This document shows positions 6,169 to 13,231 of a stretch of DNA of 64,000 bases, piece after piece. Source of the DNA: an uncultured Pelagibacteraceae bacterium (GTDB taxonomy: Bacteria; Pseudomonadota; Alphaproteobacteria; Pelagibacterales; Pelagibacteraceae); NCBI GenBank assembly GCA_902594335.1, contig CACJLY010000005.1:1-64000 (forward strand), in the 5' to 3' direction. The notes beneath the pieces are model-generated. The model made no database searches and was not told the DNA's origin. It saw nothing but the letters and a program-made list of their open reading frames with translations. Made by a program: the position numbers and the translations under genes. Each line of letters begins with the position of its first letter. Position 1 is the first letter of the stretch.

Positions 6169-7797
6169 ATGAATCCTTATGAAACAAATTTGGATAAAAA
6201 CGATGCCAATTATGTTCCATTAACCCCTTTATCATTTCTAGAAAGAGCAAAAGATATTTATCCAAACTACGAAGCAGTAGTTTATGAAAGTAGGAAATAC
6301 ACTTGGAGTGAAGTTTACAAAAGATGTATTAAGTTTGCTAGTGCATTAGATAAATTAGGAATTAAAACAGGTGATACGGTATCTGTTTTGGCTTTTAACA
6401 CACCTGAAATATTCGAAGCGCATTATTCAATACCTATGGTTGGAGCAGTTATTAATGCTATTAATACAAGACTAGACTCAAAAACAATTAGTTACATTTT
6501 AAATCACAGTGAAGCAAAAGTGCTAATTGTAGATAGACAATTTCATGATGTAGTAAAAAAAGCTTTAGAGGAAGTTAGTTCGAAAATTACTATAATTGAT
6601 ATAGATGATAAAGATGCAAACCTAACCGACTCAAAAAATATAGGATCTTTGGAATATGAGGAGTTTTTAAATTCTGGAGATGAAAATTTTAAATGGAAAA
6701 TGCCAAAAGATGAGTGGCAAGCTATAGCATTAGGTTATACATCTGGAACAACTGGTAATCCAAAAGGAGTTGTTTATCATCATAGAGGATCATATTTAAT
6801 GGCAACTGGAAGTGCAGTTGCATGGAATATGCCTAATCAATTAAATTTTTTATACACAGTACCAATGTTTCATTGCAATGGATGGTGTTATCCTTGGACA
6901 ATGTCAATGATACATGGTCGAGTAATTTGTTTAAGAAATATTGATGTAAAAAAAATATTTGAATTAATTGATAAGTATGAAGTTACTCATTTTGGTGGAG
7001 CACCAATAGTTTTAAATATGTTAGCTAATGCACCTCAGGATCAGCAAAAAGAATTAAAAAGAAAGGTGTATGTATTAACAGCAGGCGCCCCTCCTCCGAG
7101 TATAATTTTTGAAAAAATGCAAAAGTTAGGCTTTGAAGTAATGCATGTTTATGGTCTTACAGAAACCTATGGTCATATTTTGCAGTGTGCATGGAATGAA
7201 GAATGGGATGAATTAGATCAAAATAATCAAAACGAAATTAGAGCAAGACAAGGAGTAAGGTATCCTAATACAGAGGGTGTTATTGTAATGGACCCTGAAA
7301 CCATGAAGCCTGTTCCCCATGATGGTAAAACAATGGGTGAAATAATGATTAAAGGAAATGTTGTAATGAAAGGTTATTTTAAAGACAAAGAAGCAACAGA
7401 AAAATCAATGGATGGAGGTTGGTTTCATTCTGGAGATTTAGCTGTAACTCACCCAAGTGGTTACATAAAAATTCAAGACAGATCAAAAGATATTATAATT
7501 TCAGGTGGGGAAAATATTTCATCTATTGAGATAGAAAATACTATATCAAAACATCCCGCCGTATCACTGGCAGCTGTTGTGGCAAAACCTGATGAGAAAT
7601 GGGGTGAAACACCTTGTGCTTTTGTTGAATTAATCGAAGGTAAATCAAGCTCAGAAGAGGAAATTATTACGTTTTGTCGGGAAACTCTTGCTGGATTTAA
7701 ACTTCCTAAAAAAGTCGTGTTTGCTCCTCTACCAAAAACATCCACTGGAAAGATTCAAAAGTTTGAGCTGAGAAAACAAGCTAAGGAATTAAACTAA
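6169..7797 (+). CDS. dmdB: Acyl-CoA ligase, probable methylmercaptopropionate-CoA ligase DmdB
   Basis: ANL-superfamily ligase that activates an acid to acyl-AMP and then acyl-CoA. Motifs: the P-loop YTSGTTGNPKGVVYHHRG (from residue 190), the adenylate-binding VYGLTETYG, GWFHSGDLAV with the ribose-binding Asp, the hinge region IQDRSKDIIISGGENISS, and the catalytic Lys528 in TSTGKIQK. At 542 aa it has DmdB size. Its place between dmdC and dmdA makes 3-methylmercaptopropionate (the product of DmdA) the expected substrate. Medium-chain fatty acids cannot be excluded by eye. The start is one base after the dmdC stop. Confidence 0.87.
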   Translation: MNPYETNLDKNDANYVPLTPLSFLERAKDIYPNYEAVVYESRKYTWSEVYKRCIKFASALDKLGIKTGDTVSVLAFNTPEIFEAHYSIPMVGAVINAINTRLDSKTISYILNHSEAKVLIVDRQFHDVVKKALEEVSSKITIIDIDDKDANLTDSKNIGSLEYEEFLNSGDENFKWKMPKDEWQAIALGYTSGTTGNPKGVVYHHRGSYLMATGSAVAWNMPNQLNFLYTVPMFHCNGWCYPWTMSMIHGRVICLRNIDVKKIFELIDKYEVTHFGGAPIVLNMLANAPQDQQKELKRKVYVLTAGAPPPSIIFEKMQKLGFEVMHVYGLTETYGHILQCAWNEEWDELDQNNQNEIRARQGVRYPNTEGVIVMDPETMKPVPHDGKTMGEIMIKGNVVMKGYFKDKEATEKSMDGGWFHSGDLAVTHPSGYIKIQDRSKDIIISGGENISSIEIENTISKHPAVSLAAVVAKPDEKWGETPCAFVELIEGKSSSEEEIITFCRETLAGFKLPKKVVFAPLPKTSTGKIQKFELRKQAKELN

Positions 7798-7847: not shown

Positions 7848-8957
7848 ATGAAAACTTTTTTAATAGCAAAATCAAGAAGACTTAGAGGTACACCGTACAC
7901 CTCTAGAATTGAAAAACAAGGTGTAACTGCCTATAGTATTTATAATCATATGTTACTCCCAGCAGCATTTGGCTCAATAGAAGATTCTTATCATCACTTA
8001 AAAGAAAATGTTCAAATTTGGGATGTGGCTGCTGAAAGGCAAGTTGAAATCACTGGAAAAGATTCTGCAAAATTAGTTCAGTTAATGACTTGTAGAGATT
8101 TATCAAAATCAAAAGAGGGAAGATGTTATTATTGTCCAATAATAGATGATAATGCTGGCTTGATTAATGATCCAGTTGTTTTAAAGTTTAATGAAAATAA
8201 ATGGTGGATTTCGATAGCTGATACAGATGTAATATTATTTGCAAAAGGATTAGCAATTGGAAAAAATTTTGATGTTAAAATTATTGAACCTGATATTGAT
8301 ATTATGGCAGTGCAAGGTCCAAAGTCATTTAAATTAATGGAAAAAGTTTTTGGAGAAAAAATTGCAAATCTTAAATTTTTTGGTTTTGATTATTTTGAAT
8401 TCGGCGGTGATAAGCATTTAATTGCGAGATCTGGTTGGTCTAAACAAGGTGGTTATGAAATTTACGTTGAACATAATGACTCCGGTTTAAAATTATACGA
8501 TCATCTATTTGAAATTGGTAAAGAATTTAATGTTCGGCCAGGAGGCCCCAACTTAATCGAACGTATTGAAAGTGGTTTACTCTCACATGGAAATGATATG
8601 GATAATGGAGATAATCCATATGAGTGTGGTTTTGATAAGTATGTAAATATAGATAGTGATGTTGATTTCTTAGGTAAAGAAAAACTTAAAATAATTAAAG
8701 CTGAAGGAATTAAAAAAAAACTTATGGGAGTAAAAATTGATGCCAAGGAAATAAGTGTTAATGGCTCAATGGATTTAGTAGATGAAGATAATAATGTAAT
8801 CGGAGAATTAAGATCTGGTTGTTACAATCCGACTTTTAAACAAGTAATTGGGATTGCAATGATTAACAAACCACATTTTGAGACTTCGAAATCCTTTAAA
8901 ATCAATATAAATGGCTCTGATTTTGATGGAAAAGTTTGTGATTTACCTTTCATTTAG
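7848..8957 (+). CDS. dmdA: Dimethylsulfoniopropionate demethylase DmdA
   Basis: DmdA removes one methyl group from DMSP and gives it to tetrahydrofolate, leaving methylmercaptopropionate. The protein has a GcvT/aminomethyltransferase fold (369 aa), but the N-terminus ([20 protein letters not shown]) and segments such as [11 protein letters not shown]-like [39 protein letters not shown] and [17 protein letters not shown] match what I recall of the Pelagibacter DmdA far better than GcvT. SAR11 cells depend on reduced organic sulfur, so this is a key enzyme for them. A 50-base gap separates it from dmdB; no riboswitch was recognised there. asd follows 19 bases downstream. Confidence 0.94.
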
Positions 8958-8976: not shown

Positions 8977-9987
8977 ATGAATATAGCAATAGTAGGAGCG
9001 ACAGGAAACGTAGGTCGAAAATTAATAGAAGTTTTGGAAAAAAAAAAATTTCCAATAACAGAGGCTTATTTAGTTGCGTCTTCAAATAGTGAAGGAAAAA
9101 AAATTAATTTTTTAGGAAAAGAGCTTACTGTTAGTAATTTAGAACAATTTGATTTCTCAAAAGTAAAAATTGCTTTTTTTGCAGCTGGTTCTTCAATTGC
9201 TGAAAAATGGGCACCGATTGCAGCTGAAAAAACAATTGTAATTGATAATTCGAAATTCTTTAGAAAAGATCCAGAAATTCCTTTAATTGTTCCAGAGGTA
9301 AATTCCAAAGAATTACCTAAATTTAAAAATAAGAATATTATAGCAAATGCCAATTGTTCAGTAATACCAATAGTTGTAGCTCTTAAACCATTACATGATT
9401 TGTATAATGTAAAAAGAATAGTTGCATCAACTTATCAATCAGTTTCTGGTGCAGGCAAAGCTGGTATGGATGAGCTTATATCTCAAACAAAAGAAGTATT
9501 AGAAAATAAAAATGTGGAGTCTAAAAATTTTACTAAGCAGATTGCTTTTAACGCTATACCACACATAGATAGTTTTGTTGAGAATGGAAGCACTAAAGAA
9601 GAGCAAAAAAATCATGATGAAGTAAAAAAAATTTTAGACCCTAAAATCAACATAACTTCTACTTGTGTGAGAATTCCTGTTCTTGTTTCCCACTCTATAA
9701 GTGTAAATGTTGAATTTTATAAGCAACATGACTTAGTAGAAATAAGAAATGTTTTATCATCATCACCAGGATGCAAGGTAGTTGATGAGCAAAAAGATGG
9801 AGGATATATTACTCCTGTTGAAGCTGAGGATAAATTTGAAACGTTTATATCAAGAATTCGTGAAGACTCTTCTCAGCCAAATTCTATTAATTTATGGGTA
9901 GTATCTGATAATTTATTAAAAGGTGCTGCTTTAAATGCAGTTGAAATTGCTGAGGCTTTGGTAGAAAAAGATTTTTATGGAAAATAA
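8977..9987 (+). CDS. asd: Aspartate-semialdehyde dehydrogenase
   Basis: Reduces aspartyl phosphate to aspartate semialdehyde, the branch point to lysine/DAP, threonine and methionine. It has a Rossmann start IVGATGNVGRKLIEVL, DNSKFFRKDPEIPLIVPEVN, the catalytic Cys127 in ANANCSVIPIV (the family usually has NPNC followed by S/T and T; the Pro and Thr are replaced here), and RIPVLVSHS. Its 336 aa are normal. The 3' end overlaps sdhC by 11 bases. Confidence 0.95.
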   Translation: MNIAIVGATGNVGRKLIEVLEKKKFPITEAYLVASSNSEGKKINFLGKELTVSNLEQFDFSKVKIAFFAAGSSIAEKWAPIAAEKTIVIDNSKFFRKDPEIPLIVPEVNSKELPKFKNKNIIANANCSVIPIVVALKPLHDLYNVKRIVASTYQSVSGAGKAGMDELISQTKEVLENKNVESKNFTKQIAFNAIPHIDSFVENGSTKEEQKNHDEVKKILDPKINITSTCVRIPVLVSHSISVNVEFYKQHDLVEIRNVLSSSPGCKVVDEQKDGGYITPVEAEDKFETFISRIREDSSQPNSINLWVVSDNLLKGAALNAVEIAEALVEKDFYGK

Positions 9988-10360
9988 AAATCCCATATCT
10001 CCTCATATACAAATTTATAACTGGCACATCTCTTCGTTGGTTTCAATATCACACAGAGTAACTGGTATAATAAACTTTATTACAGTAACTTTGATAGGTA
10101 TTTGGATAGCATCTTTATTACTAGGAGAGGAAAGTTATGTATTTACTAATTTTTTCTTATCGTCTTTCGTTGGTAAATTTGTTTGTTTAGGAGTTATTTG
10201 GTCTTTTACATTTCAAATGCTCAGCGAAATAAGGCATTTAATCATGGATTTAGGATACGGATTTGAGCAAAAAACTACAAAAGTAACTGGATTAATAGTT
10301 CTGATAGGATCATTTCCTCTTACTGTTATAATTTTTATTGTAGGAAGGCACTTAATTTAA
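9977..10360 (+). CDS. sdhC: Succinate dehydrogenase cytochrome b556 subunit SdhC, lacking the heme-ligand His
   Basis: Membrane anchor of complex II with three predicted helices (about 30-50, 60-85, 103-125). The N-terminus SPHIQIYNWHISSLVSISHRVTG is typical of alphaproteobacteria. By ungapped comparison with E. coli SdhC (constant offset of 4), the quinone-site residues S27 and R31 are kept as Ser23 and Arg27, and IRHxxMD is kept at 85-91. The heme b ligand H84 is replaced by Gln80. The gene overlaps asd by 11 bases and shares one base with sdhD. Gln could at best be a weak axial ligand. Confidence 0.93.
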   Translation: MENKNPISPHIQIYNWHISSLVSISHRVTGIINFITVTLIGIWIASLLLGEESYVFTNFFLSSFVGKFVCLGVIWSFTFQMLSEIRHLIMDLGYGFEQKTTKVTGLIVLIGSFPLTVIIFIVGRHLI

Positions 10361-10683
10361 TGGGTTTTGTAACGAAGAAATGGATATTTTTAAAAGTAAG
10401 TTCTGCAATTTTACTTCCATTAATGCTATGGTTTTCTATAAATTTGGCTTCTGTTTATGACAAAGGCTATAATGAATTACTTTTATTCATAACATCTCAA
10501 CCGTCTAAGTTCTTATTTAGTCTTTTTTTGATTTTTGCATATTTTTTCTCAGCTTTAAGCATTAGTGAGGTTTTTGAGGATTATATTGAGGACGAAAAAA
10601 TCAAAAATGCCGCAAATAAATCATTAAATATCTTTGCTATAGTATTTCCATTATTAATAATTATCTTAATATTTAAATTATAG
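10360..10683 (+). CDS. sdhD: Succinate dehydrogenase membrane anchor SdhD, with no histidine
   Basis: Second membrane anchor of complex II: 107 aa with three hydrophobic segments (about 11-31, 50-70, 87-106). The identity comes from the position between sdhC and sdhA, the topology, and the EDYIED motif, where Asp74-Tyr75 match the quinone-site D82-Y83 of E. coli. The residue equivalent to heme ligand H71, eleven positions before that Asp, is Phe63, and the entire protein contains no histidine. Together with Gln80 in SdhC this predicts an anchor without the usual bis-His heme b. sdhA starts two bases after the stop. Confidence 0.9.
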
Positions 10684-10685
10684 CT

Positions 10686-12461
10686 ATGAGTGCATACAAA
10701 ATTATTGACCATGAATATGATGTAGTTGTTTTAGGTGCAGGTGGATCTGGACTAAGAGCAGCTGTTGGCCTAAGTGAGGCCGGTCTAAAAACGGCATGTG
10801 TATCAAAAGTATTCCCAACACGAAGTCATACATCTGCAGCACAAGGAGGTATTTCGGCAGCACTTGGAAATATGGGAGAAGATGACTGGAGATGGCATAT
10901 GTATGATACTGTCAAAGGTGCTGATTGGTTAGGTGACCAGGATTCCATCGAATATCTATGTAAAGAAGCACCAGCTGCAGTTCTTGAATTAGAAAAGTAT
11001 GGTGTTCCATTTAGTAGAACTGAAGAAGGAAAAATTTATCAAAGACCTTTTGGGGGTATGACAAAAAACTACGGAAATGAAACAGTTCAAAGAACATGTG
11101 CAGCAGCAGATAGAACTGGACATGCAATACTTCACACATTGTATGGACAAGCTTTAAAACATAATACCGAATTTTTTATTGAATATTTTGCGTTAGATTT
11201 AATAATGAAAGACGGAGCATGCAAAGGTATAATTGCTTGGAACCTCAATGATGGAACAATTCACAGATTTAGATCCCACACAACTATTATAGCGACAGGG
11301 GGTTATGGAAAAGTATATTACTCAGCTACTTCAGCTCATACTTGCACCGGAGATGGTAATGCTATGGCTTTAAGAGCTGGATTGCCTTTACAAGACATGG
11401 AATTTGTACAGTTTCATCCAACAGGAATATATGGTCATGGAACTTTAATTTCAGAGGGTGTAAGAGGAGAAGGTGGTTATCTAGTAAATTCAAAAGGAGA
11501 AAGATTTATGGAGCGTTATGCTCCTAAAGCAAAAGATTTAGCATCAAGAGATGTTGTAAGTAGATCAATTGCAGTAGAAATAAATGAAGGTAGAGGTATT
11601 GGAAAAGAACAAGATCATGTTCATCTCCATATTGATCATTTGGATCCAAAAGTAATTGATGAAAGATTACCAGGAATCTCAGAGGCTTCAAAATTATTTG
11701 CCAATGTAGATGTAACCAAGGAACCTATACCAGTGGTACCAACAGTTCATTATAACATGGGTGGAATACCAACAAATTACAAAGCAGAGGTTCTTACAGT
11801 AAACGGATCGGAGAAAACTGTGCCTGGGTTAATGGCTATTGGAGAGGCAGCATGTGTTTCTGTTCATGGTGCGAATAGATTAGGTTCGAACTCATTAATA
11901 GATTTAGTGGTTTTTGGAAGAGCTGCAGCAAAAAGAGCAGCAGAGTTAGTAAAACCCGGAATGAAGCATGATGAAATTGATAAAAATGAAACGGATAGAT
12001 GTTTAGATAGATTTGACAAATTAAGAAACTCAGAAGGTTCAAACCCAACATCTGAACTTAGACTTTCGATGCAAAAGACAATGCAATCTAAGTGTGCTGT
12101 ATTTAGATCAGAGAAAACTTTAAAAGAAGGTGTTAATGAAATTAGAAAACCTTATGATGGAATGGACTCTCTTTCTGTAAAAGATAAGTCATTAATATTT
12201 AATACTGACTTAGTTGAAACCCTGGAATTTGATAATTTAATAAGACAAGCAATAACCACTATGGACTCTGCATATCATAGAAAAGAAAGCAGAGGAGCTC
12301 ATGCAAGAGAAGATTTTCCAAATAGAGACGATGAGAATTATATGCAGCACACTCTATCTTGGTGCAGTGGTTCAAAAACTAAAATTAATTATAGACCTGT
12401 TCACAGATCAACGCTAACAAATGATGTACAATATTTTCCTCCGCAGGAAAGAGTATATTAA
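10686..12461 (+). CDS. sdhA: Succinate dehydrogenase flavoprotein subunit SdhA
   Basis: Oxidises succinate to fumarate with covalently bound [13 protein letters not shown] (about 17-26) binds the ADP part of FAD. His48 in [11 protein letters not shown] is the expected FAD-attachment residue. [25 protein letters not shown] and [18 protein letters not shown] are the active-site and C-terminal signatures. Its 591 aa are typical. The stop overlaps the start of sdhB by one base (TAATG). It feeds electrons to SdhB and then to quinone at the SdhC/D interface. Confidence 0.98.
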
Positions 12462-13231
12462 TGGTTCAATTAAGTTTACCTACAAATTCAAAGGTAGAAA
12501 AAGGTCAATACTATAAAGATAAAACAGGGTCAAAAAATATTAGAAAAGTAAATGTTTATAGATGGGATCCATCTAAAAACGAAAATCCAAGACTTGATAC
12601 CTATGAAGTTGATATGGACAACTGTTCATCAAAAGTCCTTGATATTTTAAATAAAATTAAAAACGAAATTGATCCTTCTGTAGCTTACAGAAGATCTTGT
12701 GCTCATGGAGTTTGTGGATCTTGTGCGATGAATATGAATGGAAAAAATGGTTTAGCATGTACAAAAGCCCATACTGAATTGGATGGAGATATTGATATTT
12801 ATCCTCTACCACATCTAAAAGTCTTAAAAGATTTAATCGGTGATTTAAGCACATTATATAAACAATATGAGTCTGTTGAACCTTGGTTAAAAACATCAAA
12901 GGTAAATGATAAAGAAAATATTCAATCTAAAGGCGACAGAGCAAAATTAGATGGATTATATGAATGTATTATGTGTGCATGTTGTTCAACTTCTTGCCCA
13001 AGTTATTGGTGGAACGGTGAAAAATATTTAGGTCCAGCTGTATTACTTCAGGCTTATAGGTGGATAATTGATAGTAGAGATGAAGATAGAAAAGAAAGAC
13101 TTAAAAAAGTAGCTGATGAATTAAAGCTCTATCGATGCCATACTATCTTGAATTGTACAAATGCTTGCCCGAAGGGCTTAAATCCTGCAAAAGCTATTGC
13201 AGAGATAAAGAAAATGCTTGCAACGGCCTAA
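12461..13231 (+). CDS. sdhB: Succinate dehydrogenase iron-sulfur subunit SdhB
   Basis: Electron-transfer subunit between SdhA and the membrane anchors. All cluster ligands are visible: [2Fe-2S] C80, C85, C88 and C100; the CxxCxxC-type run C169, C172, C175 and C179 for [4Fe-4S] and part of [3Fe-4S]; and [17 protein letters not shown] for the rest. SYWWNG is the expected segment near the quinone site. In the [2Fe-2S] motif the usual CREGICGSC reads CAHGVCGSC. Its length of 256 aa is normal, and it is the last gene of sdhCDAB. Confidence 0.97.

Follow-up and report, generated by a model that had tools for sequence, protein, structure and literature searches.

A SAR11 Succinate Dehydrogenase Lacking Both Heme b Ligands Is Very Probably Heme-Free

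Introduction

Class C of complex II is defined by the presence of one heme b (review PMC10238741), a cofactor whose role in this enzyme has been called highly ambiguous (PMC3290573). The sdhCDAB operon located in the window, that is, in the whole stretch of 64,000 nucleotides analysed here, raises the question of whether its product still binds this heme. Here, as in nearly all close relatives examined, both residues that hold the heme have been lost, apparently in a stepwise manner, and the sequences indicate that the enzyme is very probably heme-free. If this is right, the citric acid cycle of a very abundant group of respiring marine bacteria relies on a complex II for which textbooks show a heme.

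The sdhCDAB Operon and Its Membrane Anchors

The operon is intact (9977-13231) and lies directly 3' of a gene for aspartate-semialdehyde dehydrogenase. It contains the following genes:

sdhC, 9977..10360, + strand: anchor of 127 aa (TIGR02970, 111.6 bits, cut-off 52.3)
sdhD, 10360..10683, + strand: anchor of 107 aa (TIGR02968, 44.9 bits, cut-off 41.8)
sdhA, 10686..12461, + strand: flavoprotein (TIGR01816, 950.7 bits)
sdhB, 12461..13231, + strand: Fe–S subunit (PRK05950, 349.9 bits)

The aspartate-semialdehyde dehydrogenase gene (8977-9987) overlaps the start of sdhC by 11 bases, and sdhC and sdhD have one base in common. Two genes upstream of the operon, a DMSP demethylase is encoded (7848-8957; NF009133, 566.5 bits, cut-off 410), preceded by an acyl-CoA synthetase gene (6169-7797).

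SdhC and SdhD models (TIGR02970 and TIGR02968) are the only anchor families that score above cut-off, and the Frd anchor models gave no match to the window anchors at E up to 1, which argues against assignment to the FrdC/FrdD type (type D). The AF2 model of SdhC (pLDDT 88.7) contains long helices at residues 16-49, 64-94, and 98-126, and that of SdhD (pLDDT 94.1) at residues 3-32, 49-75, and 79-106, so that predicted folds and family models agree on two anchors with three transmembrane helices each, as in type C. Since phmmer found no match of SdhD among PDB chains at E up to 10, fold comparison was used instead: the SdhD model matches E. coli chain 2wdq_D with Z 13.3 and rmsd 1.9 over 105 aligned residues, and FrdD (1kf6_D) more weakly, with Z 9.5. 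SdhC matches E. coli SdhC with Z 12.7 and rmsd 6.0, although Z values below about 13 can reflect a common helical arrangement; the family models agree with the SdhC/SdhD identity.

The SdhD score barely exceeds the family cut-off, as might be expected if the anchors were decaying and the enzyme were a poor or non-functional quinone reductase. Nevertheless, dN/dS against loci L002-L004 is 0.07-0.10 for SdhC and 0.08-0.17 for SdhD, and the anchor genes are under purifying selection. The intact operon, the confident predicted folds, and the retention of SdhC Ser23 and Arg27 and of SdhD Asp74-Tyr75 in all 72 own-genus loci likewise make decay very improbable. A second complex II in the source genome (G000) was also considered and rejected, as only one SdhC match is found there; among the 265 genomes of the order in which SdhC was matched, only three (G226, G284, and G311) list two matches, so that a second enzyme does not generally take its place.

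The Ligand Columns and the Catalytic Residues

Three sites are central to the comparison with E. coli MG1655 (L321), which served as the residue reference:

SdhC Gln80 codon CAA, 10214..10216, + strand: column of the E. coli heme ligand His84
SdhD Phe63 codon TTC, 10546..10548, + strand: column of the E. coli heme ligand His71
SdhD Asp74-Tyr75, 10579..10584, + strand: quinone site, invariant in 36 aligned sequences

The sequence-only reading had placed Gln80 and Phe63 at the two ligand positions, with offsets to the E. coli numbering of 4 in SdhC and 8 in SdhD and with no gaps near either site. Both offsets hold, and the two replacements are confirmed by alignment and by the SdhD fold. The alignment of 36 SdhD sequences is free of gaps from the ligand column to Asp74-Tyr75; the only gap close to the site, in L179, lies just upstream of the ligand column. 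Moreover, residues 3-107 of the SdhD model align to residues 11-115 of 2wdq_D without a gap and, therefore, Phe63 corresponds to His71. Since the fold match of SdhC is looser (rmsd 6.0), its register was taken from the sequence block around Arg86-His87-Asp91. SdhD contains no histidine at all, just as had been claimed. Chance, assembly error, and a frameshift were rejected as sources of these replacements, because the SdhC Gln is present in every own-genus locus and the matches listed carry no internal stop.

The rest of the enzyme is of the familiar kind. The quinone-site residues SdhC Ser23 and Arg27 are kept, as are SdhC Asp91, Trp164 and His207 of E. coli SdhB (Trp184 and His227 in the window), and the FAD-binding His45 of E. 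coli SdhA (His48 in the window). The cluster ligands of SdhB are all Cys, including Cys88 at the position of E. coli Asp63. Thus, the FAD His, the ligands of three Fe–S clusters, and the ubiquinone-site residues of type C enzymes are all found in the sequence, and the earlier claim that they are retained stands for every residue compared. Type C enzymes hold one heme b by one His from each anchor, and Gln80 and Phe63 occupy these two places. Judged by its residues, the window enzyme is best classed as a relative of type C without heme ligands rather than as a full member.

Distribution within the Order

A total of 297 genomes of the order were drawn, and SdhC was found in 265 of them. Reading 118 loci of the order together with 56 named loci provided 165 unique SdhC+SdhD pairs within the order. 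L108 and L118 (stretches of about 100 bases) and L198 (SdhC not found) were dropped; L279 is without SdhD, SdhD of L299 is cut short, and L076 has no reading of the SdhD columns. L050 and L059, which repeat L015 and L031, were excluded from the 172-locus count and included in the group table. L289, L290, and L299-L320 are named loci outside the order.

The genus of the window (f1/g1) comprises 72 loci from 71 genomes, L050 being the repeat of L015. All 72 loci carry SdhC Gln together with Glu four residues past the ligand position (ligand+4), while SdhD has Phe in 63 and Tyr in nine. In g8 (11 loci) and g9 (one locus), SdhC retains its His and SdhD has Phe, and the SdhC Glu at ligand+4 is already present. 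Both His are kept in g5 (two loci), g6 (three), g7 (four), and g10 (one), all with Gly at both ligand+4 sites except for SdhD Ser (75) in g10. The SdhC ligand+4 site is thus Glu in 72/72 own-genus and 12/12 g8/g9 loci, and Gly in 10/10 loci of g5, g6, g7, and g10. The second family, f2, took another course: both His are kept where readable in g3 (six loci from five genomes, with L076 as the one lacking an SdhD reading), and SdhC Tyr is combined with SdhD His in g2 (17 loci) and g4 (one locus).

Among the 165 unique pairs, the SdhC/SdhD states are Gln/Phe (68), Gln/Tyr (24), His/His (22), His/Phe (19), Tyr/His (17), Gln/Asn (6), Gln/His (6), and Phe/Phe (1), with two pairs lacking an SdhD reading. 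The clade marked by the SdhC Glu (the Glu clade, 125 unique pairs) contains all cases within the order in which the SdhC His has become Gln or Phe: column 84 is Gln in 105 pairs, His in 19, and Phe in one. SdhD column 71 is Phe in 88 of its 124 readable pairs, Tyr in 24, Asn in six, and His in six. The scoring of both ligand columns across the order and other alphaproteobacteria that the sequence-only reading had proposed has thereby been carried out.

Residues around the Former Heme Site

Four further sites in the window bear on whether a heme could still be held:

SdhC Glu84 codon GAA, 10226..10228, + strand: aligned with E. coli Gly88 (ligand+4), suggested stand-in for a propionate
SdhD Lys12 codon AAA, 10393..10395, + strand: aligned with E. 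coli Arg20, suggested to pair with SdhC Glu84
SdhC His26 (E. coli His30), 10052..10054, + strand: candidate alternative ligand
SdhC His87 (E. coli His91, a propionate contact), 10235..10237, + strand: candidate alternative ligand

The Lys12 column is Lys in 123/123 readable unique pairs of the Glu clade. Lys at SdhD position 20 is also found with both His in f2 g3, L301, and L303-L305.

Heme b might still be bound through the pocket and its propionate contacts, with non-canonical axial ligation (for example by Gln80, water, or SdhC His26 or His87) or with none. The window retains Arg27 and His87, both of them propionate contacts; in the unique pairs of the Glu clade, His26 is conserved in 119/125 (otherwise Asn, Thr, or Gln) and His87 in 123/125 (Gln in two), and six pairs combine SdhC Gln with a His at the SdhD ligand position. 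Gln or Tyr could in principle ligate iron. In addition, E. coli axial-ligand mutants reportedly retain heme, going by the title of Maklashina 2001, so that lineages with one His may keep it. However, both ligands are gone in the window, and Phe does not ligate heme iron. Position 88 of SdhC, Gly in 115/119 loci sampled from the class, is Glu in the window. Neither His26 nor His87 is invariant in the clade, SdhD lacks any His in 85/125 of its pairs, and yeast has lost the heme with one His still present (PMC13066397). Moreover, the E. coli equivalents of these two residues, His30 and His91, contact the heme or its propionate and are not ligands (PMC3290573). Another conserved SdhC His with a partner in SdhD would have contradicted the sequence-only reading; His26 and His87 were considered for this role and are rated unlikely axial ligands, and a retained heme is improbable overall. 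In two SAR11-like loci, L261 (an isolate named Baikal-deep) and L277, SdhC His91 (E. coli numbering) has also become Gln.

The Order of Events

A combined tree was built from SdhC, SdhD, and SdhA with the five trait columns left out, using 47 representatives of the order chosen by SdhA identity and 16 other rows; the tree and the AU test omit 10 of these 63 rows (L151, L155, L162, L165, L167, L168, L170, L179, L301, and L321). The Glu clade (27 rows) has a support of 100/99, and its sister is g10 with both His. On this tree, SdhC His changed to Gln at least three times, namely in the group of the window, in L252, and in L264, and it became Phe in L278. L259 (His/Phe) sits among Gln rows at an unresolved fork, and its SdhC His may be a reversal. 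The fewest changes between His and any other state are six for SdhC and five for SdhD. On a tree of SdhA only, g10 falls inside the Glu clade, although the clade as one group is not rejected (AU p 0.255); this tree was considered too weak for ordering the groups.

Comparison among the groups shows that, in the SAR11 main line, the SdhD His was apparently lost first, together with the changes of SdhC Gly to Glu at ligand+4 and of SdhD Arg20 to Lys, and that SdhC His gave way to Gln later. In family f2, it is the SdhC His that was lost, being replaced by Tyr, and the SdhD His that was kept. The codons at SdhD column 71 form a chain of single-base steps (TTT-TAT-CAT/AAT), which fits drift at a released position; the His or Asn seen there in some Gln lineages looks as if the site were free to drift. 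Two Ser calls in 130 rows of the codon scan of this column were taken as misreads at a second Asp-Tyr pair, as the alignment shows no Ser. The SdhC Gln hardly varies within the Gln lineages and may, therefore, have a structural use. Since close relatives naturally carry two, one, or no ligand His, the role of the heme becomes testable without engineered damage.

Known Heme-Free Enzymes and a Proposed Mechanism

A close precedent is the complex II of S. cerevisiae, a natural heme-free four-subunit enzyme of type C in which a ligand His is replaced and the Gly four residues past the ligand has become Glu (PMC13066397). Sdh4 Tyr108 occupies the ligand position and is hydrogen-bonded directly to the His, in place of the His-heme-His link; Sdh4 Glu112, replacing a glycine, bridges to Sdh3 Arg97 at the former place of the propionate (PMC13066397). 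The yeast enzyme differs in that the SdhC-side His is kept, with Tyr on the SdhD side and Glu in Sdh4, whereas in the window both His are gone and the Glu lies in SdhC instead of SdhD, a pseudo-twofold mirror of the yeast arrangement, with Lys12 opposite by homology. A pseudo-twofold axis is known from E. coli, where SdhD Arg20 mirrors SdhC Arg31 (PMC3290573).

The enzyme of E. coli (SdhCDAB, type C) resembles that of the window in operon order, fold, and quinone-site and Fe–S residues. Its heme lies off the path from the [3Fe–4S] cluster to ubiquinone and is not needed for catalysis (PMC3290573). The differences are that the E. coli wild type has a bis-His heme b and that its heme-free form is engineered; in that form, about half of the activity is lost, and growth on succinate is still supported (PMC3290573), in agreement with the earlier remark that engineered heme-free variants remain active. 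E. coli FrdABCD (type D) also has two heme-less anchors (PMC10238741), and FrdD is the weaker fold match to the SdhD model noted above, whereas above cut-off the window anchors match SdhC/SdhD family models only. In ciliates, SDHC and SDHD are strongly reduced (PMC10060162) and the complex is described as heme-less (PMC13066397), but it contains extra lineage-specific subunits, one of them with heme c (PMC10060162). Heme loss has been cited for the complexes of Tetrahymena and Perkinsus as well (PMC13066397).

Natural heme loss in complex II is, according to this literature, not new in itself. The loss in a classical four-subunit complex that the sequence-only reading called worth documenting now has a natural precedent in the S. 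cerevisiae enzyme, shown to be heme-free by the cryo-EM work of 2026 (PMC13066397). For SAR11 or other bacterial SdhCDAB, no report of natural heme loss was found in the full-text literature, a body from which subscription papers are mostly absent, and the available parts of PMC8879329 and PMC4013037 hold nothing on it.

The absence of both ligands, the retention of the other residues, purifying selection, and the ordered, repeated loss together argue that the complex II encoded in the window is a working ubiquinone reductase of the type C kind and no longer binds heme b, with a probability of roughly 0.8; heme can be inferred to be absent from the site. The working complex II without bis-His heme b proposed in the sequence-only reading is well supported in these four respects; the same reading is supported only in part as a whole, since its iron-saving reason and the rarity of such a loss do not stand as worded. 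In such an enzyme, electrons from succinate would enter at FAD, cross three Fe–S clusters, and reach ubiquinone directly at the SdhB/C/D site, and the heme, off the electron path in E. coli, would simply be gone. SdhC Glu84 may pair with SdhD Lys12 across the former heme cleft, a suggestion made more weakly, from homology. Such a bridge would replace the bridging role of the propionate, as a pseudo-twofold mirror of the yeast Glu112-Arg97 pair.

Losses Elsewhere in the Alphaproteobacteria

The sample of the class consists of 119 loci (120 sought) from 109 families, read from the 194 genomes with a match among 240; it is made up of the 30 best matches, 30 of the weakest, and 60 others mostly taken one per family, and leaves aside the 46 genomes without a match. 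Both His are kept in 114/119 loci. Single ligand losses occur in 4/109 of these families outside the order, a rate that is not a census because the sample is enriched for weak matches. SdhC Tyr with SdhD Glu at ligand+4 is found in L165 (f137), L167 (f87), and L179 and L180 (f112); in L170 (f140), SdhC retains its His, and SdhD has Tyr in the ligand column and Ser at position 75. The second locus of f137, L209, keeps both His, and this family is still counted as lost. A residue other than Gly at a ligand+4 site is present in 4/4 families with a loss versus 1/105 without (Fisher 9e-7). A further 30 loci chosen mostly for weak scores, of which eight belong to the class and 22 to other parts of the phylum, have His wherever a ligand column could be read (28 in SdhC and 29 in SdhD). 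The SdhC-Tyr/SdhD-His pairs of f2 and of the class look like mirror images of the His-Tyr pair of yeast.

The change of Gly to Glu was rejected as a strict marker, as L155 and L352 have residues other than Gly with both His, and g10 has Ser at SdhD 75 with both His. Moreover, since both the Lys at SdhD 20 and a possible charge pair in L352 occur with both His, the mark is no proof of heme loss. L352 (f24) has SdhC Arg88 opposite SdhD Glu75, possibly forming this pair in the heme region, and L155 (f34) combines SdhC Asp88 with SdhD Ser75, perhaps an early stage of loss. The anchors of L179 and L180 (f112) are very divergent, with SdhC Tyr84, Glu at both ligand+4 sites, and an SdhD below the family cut-off.

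A more general proposal can be put forward tentatively, at somewhat less than even odds: the heme b of type C complex II would be dispensable and would have been shed at least six times by small-genome alphaproteobacteria along a predictable path. One ligand His would change (to Tyr, or to Phe in the SAR11 main line), the Gly at ligand+4 would become Glu or another residue that bridges the empty cleft, and the second His would then be free to drift, so that a large share of surface-ocean succinate dehydrogenase would be without heme.

Iron Saving or Relaxed Selection

A need to save iron and heme in the open ocean could have been the selective force behind the loss. The class losses are found in small genomes: the five loci come from genomes of 1.4, 1.4, 1.4, 1.5, and 2.0 Mb, whereas the genomes of the 114 intact loci have a median size of 3.0 Mb. 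Four of the five (one per family) differ from the intact loci with a Mann-Whitney p of 0.0066. However, small genome size does not amount to iron limitation, and the weak-scoring loci of the sample were also drawn from small genomes. Both His are kept in 37/42 loci from genomes of 2.0 Mb or less, and the lost state persists in L261, the isolate named Baikal-deep. Ferrochelatase and cytochrome b are still encoded in the source genome, so heme is still made, and giving up one heme iron would spare little next to the nine irons of the Fe–S clusters. G000 gave no match to the COX1 family, from which nothing follows, as the assembly is 84% complete; a search of the iron-related literature yielded no paper that addresses this question. 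The data are equally well explained by relaxed selection on a cofactor that the enzyme can do without, and a drive to save iron is rather doubtful; iron saving, streamlining, and plain relaxation all fit the pattern of losses.
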